A stretch of DNA of 46,037 nt from Phycisphaerales bacterium (lineage in GTDB: Bacteria; Planctomycetota; Phycisphaerae; Tepidisphaerales; Tepidisphaeraceae), in contig JADYZN010000018.1 of NCBI GenBank assembly GCA_020853095.1, forward strand, positions 1-46,037, written 5' to 3'. Shown here one piece after another: positions 26,403 to 27,919 of this stretch. The position numbers and the translations under genes were made by a program. Each line of letters starts with the position of its first letter. The stretch's first letter is position 1. The notes under the pieces were generated by a model that was not told where the DNA came from, made no database searches, and saw only the letters and a list, made by a program, of their open reading frames with translations.

Positions 26403-27140
26403 TCAACCGAACTCATCGCCACGGAATGTGTTCCCCAGGTAGGCCGATTTCACCTGTGGGTCGTTGATGATCGCACGGGGTGTTCCTTCCTTGATGACAT
26501 GCCCATTGTCGATGATCAATGCTCGGTCGCACACGCGCAGGGTTTGTGCCACATTGTGGTCGGTGATCAGCACGCTTTTTCCAAATTCATGCTTCAACCG
26601 GACCACTTCCTTCTGTAAATCCTCCACCGCGATGGGATCCACGCCGCTGAATGGTTCATCCAGCAAGATCAGCTTGGGCTGGGTGACCAGCGCCCGGGCG
26701 ATTTCAAGTTTTCGTCTTTCGCCGCCGCTGAGGGTCTCGGCCCGCTGGTTGCGCTGACGGATCAGGCCGTATTGACTGAGCAATTGCTCGGCCCGGCGTT
26801 TGCGTTCGGATCGGCTGATGTTCAACGTTTCCAGAATCGCCTGCAAATTCTGCCAAACCGTCAGGCGGCGAAAGTCACTGCGTTCCTGGGCCAGATAACC
26901 AATCCCGCGTCGGGCTCGCTTGTACATCGGCAGGTGGGTGATGTCGGCCGCGTCAAACGCCACCGCGCCGCTGTCGGGCGTCACCATCCCCAGAATCATG
27001 CGAAAGGTCGTGGTTTTTCCCGCTCCATTGCGGCCCAGCAGGCCGACGATTTCCTCCTGGCGCAGCACAAAGCTGACCTCGTCCACGACCGTTCGGCCAT
27101 CGTAACTCTTTACCAGTTTGGTCGTTTCGAGCAGGTTCAT
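26403..27140 (-). CDS. lptB: LPS export ABC transporter ATP-binding protein
   Basis: LptB powers the LptB2FGC transporter that moves lipopolysaccharide from the inner membrane to the outer membrane. The 245 residues contain Walker A GRNGAGKTTTF, the Q-loop YLAQERSDFRRLTVWQN, the ABC signature LSGGERRKLEIARAL, Walker B LILLDEPFSGVDP and the H-loop TDHN. The FSGVDP and ERSDFRRLTV region fits LptB rather than a branched-chain amino-acid transporter. LptF, LptG and LptA are not nearby. The start at 27140 begins the conserved domain; an ATG five codons upstream is possible. Confidence 0.93.
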   Translation of the reverse strand: MNLLETTKLVKSYDGRTVVDEVSFVLRQEEIVGLLGRNGAGKTTTFRMILGMVTPDSGAVAFDAADITHLPMYKRARRGIGYLAQERSDFRRLTVWQNLQAILETLNISRSERKRRAEQLLSQYGLIRQRNQRAETLSGGERRKLEIARALVTQPKLILLDEPFSGVDPIAVEDLQKEVVRLKHEFGKSVLITDHNVAQTLRVCDRALIIDNGHVIKEGTPRAIINDPQVKSAYLGNTFRGDEFG

Positions 27141-27207
27141 GCAACTTTGCGTCATCCGGGAGCGGGTAGTCTGGCGACCCACACGAGAAAATCAAGAGGC
27201 ACGAAAT

Positions 27208-27216
27208 TGTGGATAA
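27208..27216 (-). other. DnaA box 1 (perfect TTATCCACA)
   Basis: TGTGGATAA on the plus strand is an exact match to the DnaA consensus TTATCCACA. It is the first of three related sites in the AT-rich gap between lptB and cspA, and shares TTGTGGATAACT with box 2. Confidence 0.75.
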
Positions 27217-27476
27217 CTAGTGGAAAACGCCCTAACCCCTTCCTGGGGCTTGACTAGGAATTGATTCACGAAAATCACGTTGAAAGTTGGATATTTCAGG
27301 ATTGGGCGATTTTATGTGTGTTTGATCGAGTGGTTGTATCTATTTGATAGTAAAAGTTTTACGAACGCGGTATTAAAATTCTCCAAGAAAATAACCACTC
27401 TTCTGAGATTTTTTGCAATTTTCAGCCAAAACTGAATTATTAACTCCATTTCACCTGCCCATCCGCGAAAACGCAT

Positions 27477-27485
27477 TGTGGATAA
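27477..27485 (-). other. DnaA box 2 (perfect TTATCCACA)
   Basis: A second exact TGTGGATAA, in the same orientation as box 1. It lies 269 bases to the right of box 1. Confidence 0.75.
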
Positions 27486-27495
27486 CTCGTAAATT

Positions 27496-27504
27496 GGTGG
27501 ATAA
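27496..27504 (-). other. DnaA box 3 (one mismatch)
   Basis: GGTGGATAA differs from the consensus at one end position and starts 19 bases after box 2. Weaker variants (AGTGGAAAA at 27219-27227) are also present. Confidence 0.55.
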
Positions 27505-27530
27505 CGGAACGTGGGAAAAATTACTTTTTT

Positions 27531-27558
27531 TTGTGGCTGGAAGCGTCCGTGGTATTCT
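27531..27558 (+). promoter_or_regulatory. Candidate cspA promoter
   Basis: TTGTGG (27531-27536) and TATTCT (27553-27558) are 16 bp apart. Transcription from here would give a leader of about 135 bases before the cspA ATG, as is usual for cold-shock genes. Confidence 0.4.
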
Positions 27559-27700
27559 TTATCGCTCAAATTTCGAGTTGCTCCCGTCGCACGCGGGGGC
27601 TTATCCGTTCGGGAAGGGCTCGATACGGAATAGTGGGTGCAAGTAAATGGCCGGCAAACCAAGGCGGTTGGCCGGTTCATCGCCGGAAAGGAGTGGCTGT

Positions 27701-27919
27701 ATGGCCACGGGTAAAGTCAAGTGGTTCAACGAACAGAAGGGATTCGGGTTTATTTCATCTGAACAAAATGGCAAGGATGTGTTTGTTCACCACACGGTCA
27801 TCGAAGGCCAGGGTTTTCGCACCCTTGCCGATGGCGAGACGGTGGAATACGAGGCCGATGAAGGCCCCAAGGGGTGGAAAGCCACCCGCGTTCGGCGCGC
27901 CGTCGCGGCCGAAGCCTGA
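27701..27919 (+). CDS. Cold-shock-domain protein (CspA family)
   Basis: A 72-residue single cold-shock domain, an OB-fold RNA/ssDNA chaperone. RNP1 is GFGFISSE and RNP2 is VFVHHTVI; the N-terminus ATGKVKWFNEQ and the hydrophobic core match the family. The ATG at 27701 has AAAGGAG seven bases upstream; the longer in-frame start upstream adds a tail unlike any Csp. The C-terminus has a few extra Ala/Glu residues. A terminator follows. Confidence 0.96.
   Translation: MATGKVKWFNEQKGFGFISSEQNGKDVFVHHTVIEGQGFRTLADGETVEYEADEGPKGWKATRVRRAVAAEA

Follow-up and report, generated by a model that had tools for sequence, protein, structure and literature searches.

Several Bacillus subtilis promoters that carry DnaA boxes have DnaA as a transcription factor (PMC4447404), and cells of this species that lack six DnaA-box clusters initiate replication early (PMC5295017). 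The datA locus of Escherichia coli keeps a constant relative distance to oriC and is always close to it (PMC4585315). The DnaA-trio, an unwinding motif, has a consensus of 3'-GAT-5' repeats that adjoin a DnaA box (PMC6669920). Little is known about replication control in planctomycetes, and a search of the open-access literature found no study devoted to planctomycete origins or to DnaA sites beside lptB. The analysis described here gives two testable loci for one planctomycete family, the Tepidisphaeraceae: dnaN, where a probable replication origin with a box-plus-trio motif lies away from dnaA, and lptB, beside which a second DnaA site is conserved.

The second site lies in the window, the whole analysed stretch of 46,037 nucleotides, in a gap between two divergent genes. 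On the minus strand is lptB (26403..27182), the gene for the LPS export ABC transporter ATPase, whose product matches the NCBIfam equivalog model TIGR04406 with 312.9 bits against a cut-off of 240. The start of this ORF, GTG 27182, probably lies 14 codons ahead of the true one; the conserved part starts at the ATG of position 27140. On the plus strand is a cspA-like gene (27701..27919) with a cold-shock domain (PF00313). Both genes were therefore correctly named in the preliminary description of this DNA. lptB is the constant neighbour of the boxes described below; the cold-shock gene accompanies them in the family and is not their neighbour in other lineages. The leader of the cold-shock gene (27530-27700 of the window) is 89% conserved in the sister species, and it has a weak match to the Rfam cspA thermoregulator RF01766 (E 0.001; 23.4 bits, the gathering score being 78).

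Four DnaA boxes, all on the minus strand, are clustered within 300 bp of the gap, as is expected of an oriC. The proximal box, an exact TTATCCACA at 27208..27216, lies 68 bp before the probable start codon of lptB. Beside it, at a distance of 11 bp, is a degenerate tandem box, TTTTCCACT (27219..27227). The distal box (27477..27485) is again an exact TTATCCACA in the same orientation, 269 bp from the proximal box, and it is followed at 19 bp by an extra box, TTATCCACC (27496..27504). Three of these sites are where the preliminary description had placed them; the degenerate box is a fourth, absent from its list. The whole 3.61 Mb genome has 17 exact TTATCCACA sites, from which only ~0.0012 same-strand pairs at such a spacing are expected per genome. 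The gap is also rich in A+T, 61% versus 41% for the window and 67% at 27300-27420, which puts it among the top 0.2% of 330-bp windows; this high A+T is kept in few relatives only. A strict scan of the gap for sigma-70 promoters and terminators gave none, and no plasmid records resembling the gap were found.

The boxes are conserved far beyond their surroundings. In the sister species 35 of their 36 bases are identical, versus 141 of 249 (57%) between the clusters (Fisher p = 2e-7). The proximal, distal and TTATCCACC boxes each match at 9/9 positions and the degenerate tandem at 8/9, where the sister species has TTTTCCACA for TTTTCCACT. Judged by this comparison, the DnaA boxes of the lptB gap are under selection. 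The claim that their grouping exceeds chance is borne out by both the expected number of pairs and the selective retention of the box bases, and the check on relatives that had been called for shows the boxes retained in the sister species and the proximal and distal ones, by position, across the family.

The distribution of the pair was determined with the pattern TTATCCACA-N(239-269)-TTATCCACA, the reversed pattern serving as control. The exact pattern occurs once each in 13 of 26 Tepidisphaeraceae genomes and the reversed control in none. All 13 pairs are upstream of lptB, 12 of them with the cold-shock gene alongside. Among nine further family genomes with an lptB match, six (G004, G005, G011, G016, G018, G021) have the pair with one mismatched box; a same-orientation pair about 270 bp apart is thus found upstream of lptB in 19 of the 22 Tepidisphaeraceae with an lptB match. 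The extra box like TTATCCACC at 27496 is not family-wide. In Phycisphaerae outside the family the pattern is present in 10 of 371 genomes. Six of these ten loci (L190-L195, families f6 and f10) are directly upstream of lptB; no cold-shock gene was found there, and from its translations the ORF on the other side reads like signal peptidase I. At another of the class loci, L199, the pair is immediately upstream of dnaN and so marks a probable origin. Beyond the class the pattern turns up in four genomes; in three of these (L287, L288, L289), from other planctomycete classes, it again precedes an lptB, one of 53-54% identity. In most of the remaining Phycisphaerae families lptB is present and the pair is missing, so the distribution is patchy.

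The geometry of the pair is nearly fixed. Across 25 elements the two boxes are 269.6 +/- 8.8 bp apart (CV 0.033), and the proximal box is 25 to 263 bp from lptB codon 15 (CV 0.55). With a tight internal spacing and a loose distance to the gene, the pair behaves as a unit. The tandem position (-11) beside the proximal box has 6.56 of 9 box matches across 25 elements, versus a background of 2.19.

The preliminary description had proposed this gap as a replication origin, and had named, as one finding that would refute it, a skew minimum and DnaA-box cluster elsewhere. The proposal runs into this test: a box cluster together with a DnaA-trio sits at dnaN in the same genome, and in a relative the skew minima lie away from the lptB site. 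The dnaN gene is at C39:127273-127629 (-), on a contig other than that of the window. Upstream of it is TTATCCACA, followed 75 bp on by TTATTCACA-ATACGACAGG-CACTACCACTATGACTATT. The 3'-GAT-5' trio reads as CTA on the strand that carries TTATCCACA, and the box-plus-trio pattern TTATNCACA-N(8-16)-CTACNACTA has a single match in the genome, at C39:127737-127766. The layout, two boxes 75 bp apart, CTA-like repeats and then dnaN, recurs across the family, and a GTCCGATAAT motif between the two dnaN boxes is conserved family-wide. In the relative G018, two boxes, then CTACTACTACTACTA, then dnaN are found at 186.5-186.8 kb. The trio score of the dnaN boxes is 3.2; that of the lptB boxes, 0.7-0.8, equals the background (0.59), and no DnaA-trio was found at them. 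The region C39:127737-127841 (L010, L262) upstream of dnaN is probably the true oriC, with dnaA not adjacent.

Two other kinds of candidate origin, at the dnaA genes and at an inverted box pair, were rejected. Neither dnaA gene of the genome has exact boxes or a cluster within ~1.5 kb, and in the family member G013 both dnaA genes give a negative skew fit. On contig C38 of the genome itself, the inverted pair of exact boxes (C38:39969/40188) has no box-plus-trio match and few genes in common with the origin region of G018. One family genome, G009, has two strong dnaN matches on separate contigs; the copy at C11:114382 has a box pair and trio-like repeats, and the copy at C31:22518 shows no pair.

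GC skew was examined in relatives, the genome itself being in 77 unordered contigs. G018 has a strong skew and carries the dnaN and lptB loci on one 501-kb contig. Its cumulative skew has minima near 190 and 280 kb, one of which coincides with dnaN, and then rises through the lptB site at 414.9 kb. The site is therefore on the rising arm, ~130-230 kb from the minima, with no change of skew sign there. A single change point is placed at 285 kb (95% interval 255-305 kb); the change-point SSE is 0.315 at best, 0.328 at the dnaN site (186.7 kb) and 0.677, a far worse fit, at the lptB site. G013, the sole single-contig genome of the family, has a weak skew (overall p = 0.05) that cannot separate 3.15 Mb, the position of lptB, from 3.67 Mb, that of dnaN. 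That the lptB gap is the chromosomal origin, or a second one, is thus highly improbable, even though it has the box cluster and a local A+T peak, the window shows a shallow local GC-skew turn near 27 kb, and the weak G013 fit permits an origin at the element (element-specific p = 0.038). Against these stand the sole box-plus-trio match at dnaN with its family-wide layout, the background trio score of the lptB boxes, the G018 skew, and an A+T richness that most relatives do not share. As far as sequence evidence goes, the proposed origin is refuted.

What reads the lptB boxes can be judged from the dnaN locus. The same 9-mer stands next to DnaA-trios at the dnaN origin, which makes it almost certain that one of the cells' DnaA proteins recognises it. 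The genome encodes two full DnaA proteins, C61:161305 and C74:9515 (L018, L019), both with the ATPase and DNA-binding domains. The first has the usual DnaA signature GGRDHTTV; the second has MGKRNHSTV, a changed DNA-reading signature (KRNHST in place of GRDHTT), and a recognisable N-terminal domain. Two strong DnaA matches were also found in each of the four single- or two-contig genomes of the class that were searched. G040:C1 has ten near-identical weak Bac_DnaA matches in frames of about 262-275 aa; these may be IstB-like helper ATPases encoded by an insertion sequence present in many copies. Another DNA-binding protein that regulates lptB could in principle read the sites, their likeness to TTATCCACA being coincidental, and the tie of the site to lptB and not to replication genes would suit this. 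It is an improbable explanation, since the 9-mer beside the trios forms the dnaN origin in these very genomes and the 11-bp tandem suits a DnaA oligomer. The lptB-gap boxes are very probably DnaA sites.

With several DnaA boxes under selection and lying apart from the unwinding site, the gap is probably an extra-origin DnaA-box cluster in the broad sense. A DnaA-titration or regulatory site had been named as the alternative to an origin, and the evidence favours a site of that kind; its mechanism we infer. Since the two-site unit has a near-fixed size and remains beside lptB even where its other neighbour is a different gene, the best reading is that DnaA forms a complex there which acts on lptB. 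With confidence just short of even, we favour a control site in which the tandem box and the box ~270 bp away form one complex that regulates lptB. The tandem box near the lptB start and the same-orientation box upstream would work together as a single unit. Bound to both, DnaA would probably bridge the boxes into a loop, and the loop would probably set lptB transcription by the amount or ATP state of DnaA. The site may also draw free DnaA off the origin, as Bacillus DnaA-box clusters do, and may additionally hold or convert DnaA in the manner of datA. The retention of the box bases in the sister species, the recurrence of the pair beside lptB within and beyond the family, its tight spacing, the 11-bp tandem, the use of the same 9-mer at the dnaN origin and the DnaA-regulated promoters of B. 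subtilis (PMC4447404) speak for the control site. The box-to-lptB distance, which is loose for a promoter site, the presence of lptB without the pair in most Phycisphaerae families, the lack of a sigma-70 promoter in the strict scan, and an origin-proximal position that suits a DnaA reservoir equally well all speak against it.

This last point concerns the distance to dnaN, which is readable in three genomes, too few for a rule. The lptB site is 7 kb from dnaN in G206, a bin with 6% contamination; 525 kb of 7.19 Mb (7.3%) in G013; and 228 kb of about 3.0 Mb (about 7.6%) in G018. Alternatively, the site might store DnaA or convert it between its ATP and ADP forms, in the manner of datA, DARS or DBC, and in this way time initiation from the dnaN origin; lptB would then be only its neighbour. 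The proximity to dnaN wherever it could be mapped is consistent with this, as are the near-fixed geometry that the pair has of its own, the kept distance between datA and oriC in E. coli (PMC4585315), and the early initiation that follows deletion of the six B. subtilis clusters (PMC5295017). A reservoir that did not act on lptB would not be expected to stay linked to this gene across classes in which its other neighbour has been replaced; most genomes have only two strong sites, and the distances come from those three genomes, one of them the contaminated bin. None of 30 element sequences has an IHF consensus, as sought by the example of datA, which is weak evidence because only 0.52 matches are expected in shuffles. 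A reservoir or conversion site is on these grounds somewhat unlikely. It stands close behind the control of lptB, and both can be true.

A wider form of the control-site reading is that a two-site DnaA switch with a near-fixed 270-bp spacing, which several planctomycete classes have kept upstream of lptB, makes the export of LPS to the outer membrane depend on the state of the replication initiator; this is possible, short of probable. If the second site does control lptB, envelope building would be linked to the replication initiator.

The lptB site resembles oriC in its 9-mer and, in its own species, in its A+T-rich DNA. Unlike an oriC it has neither a trio nor a skew minimum, the box-plus-trio being at dnaN. 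Like datA of E. coli (PMC4585315) it is a non-coding DnaA-box locus apart from the probable oriC and, in the three genomes mapped, near it, but datA carries five boxes and depends on an IHF site that lies between boxes 2 and 3. DARS1 and DARS2 of E. coli are non-coding too, and the DnaA boxes in them and the distances between these boxes are conserved. They differ in having a compact three-box core and, in DARS2, IHF and Fis sites as well; the lptB elements show no such core, having two sites ~270 bp apart of which only the proximal one is tandem. The B. subtilis clusters and promoters (sda, ywlC, vpr) are similar in that several boxes lie in or near a promoter-bearing intergenic region away from the unwinding site, where bound DnaA can control transcription or the level of free DnaA can be reduced (PMC4447404; PMC5295017). 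Unlike these, the lptB site, known from sequence, consists of two sites, one of them tandem, whose 270-bp spacing is nearly fixed and which stay beside one gene across several classes.
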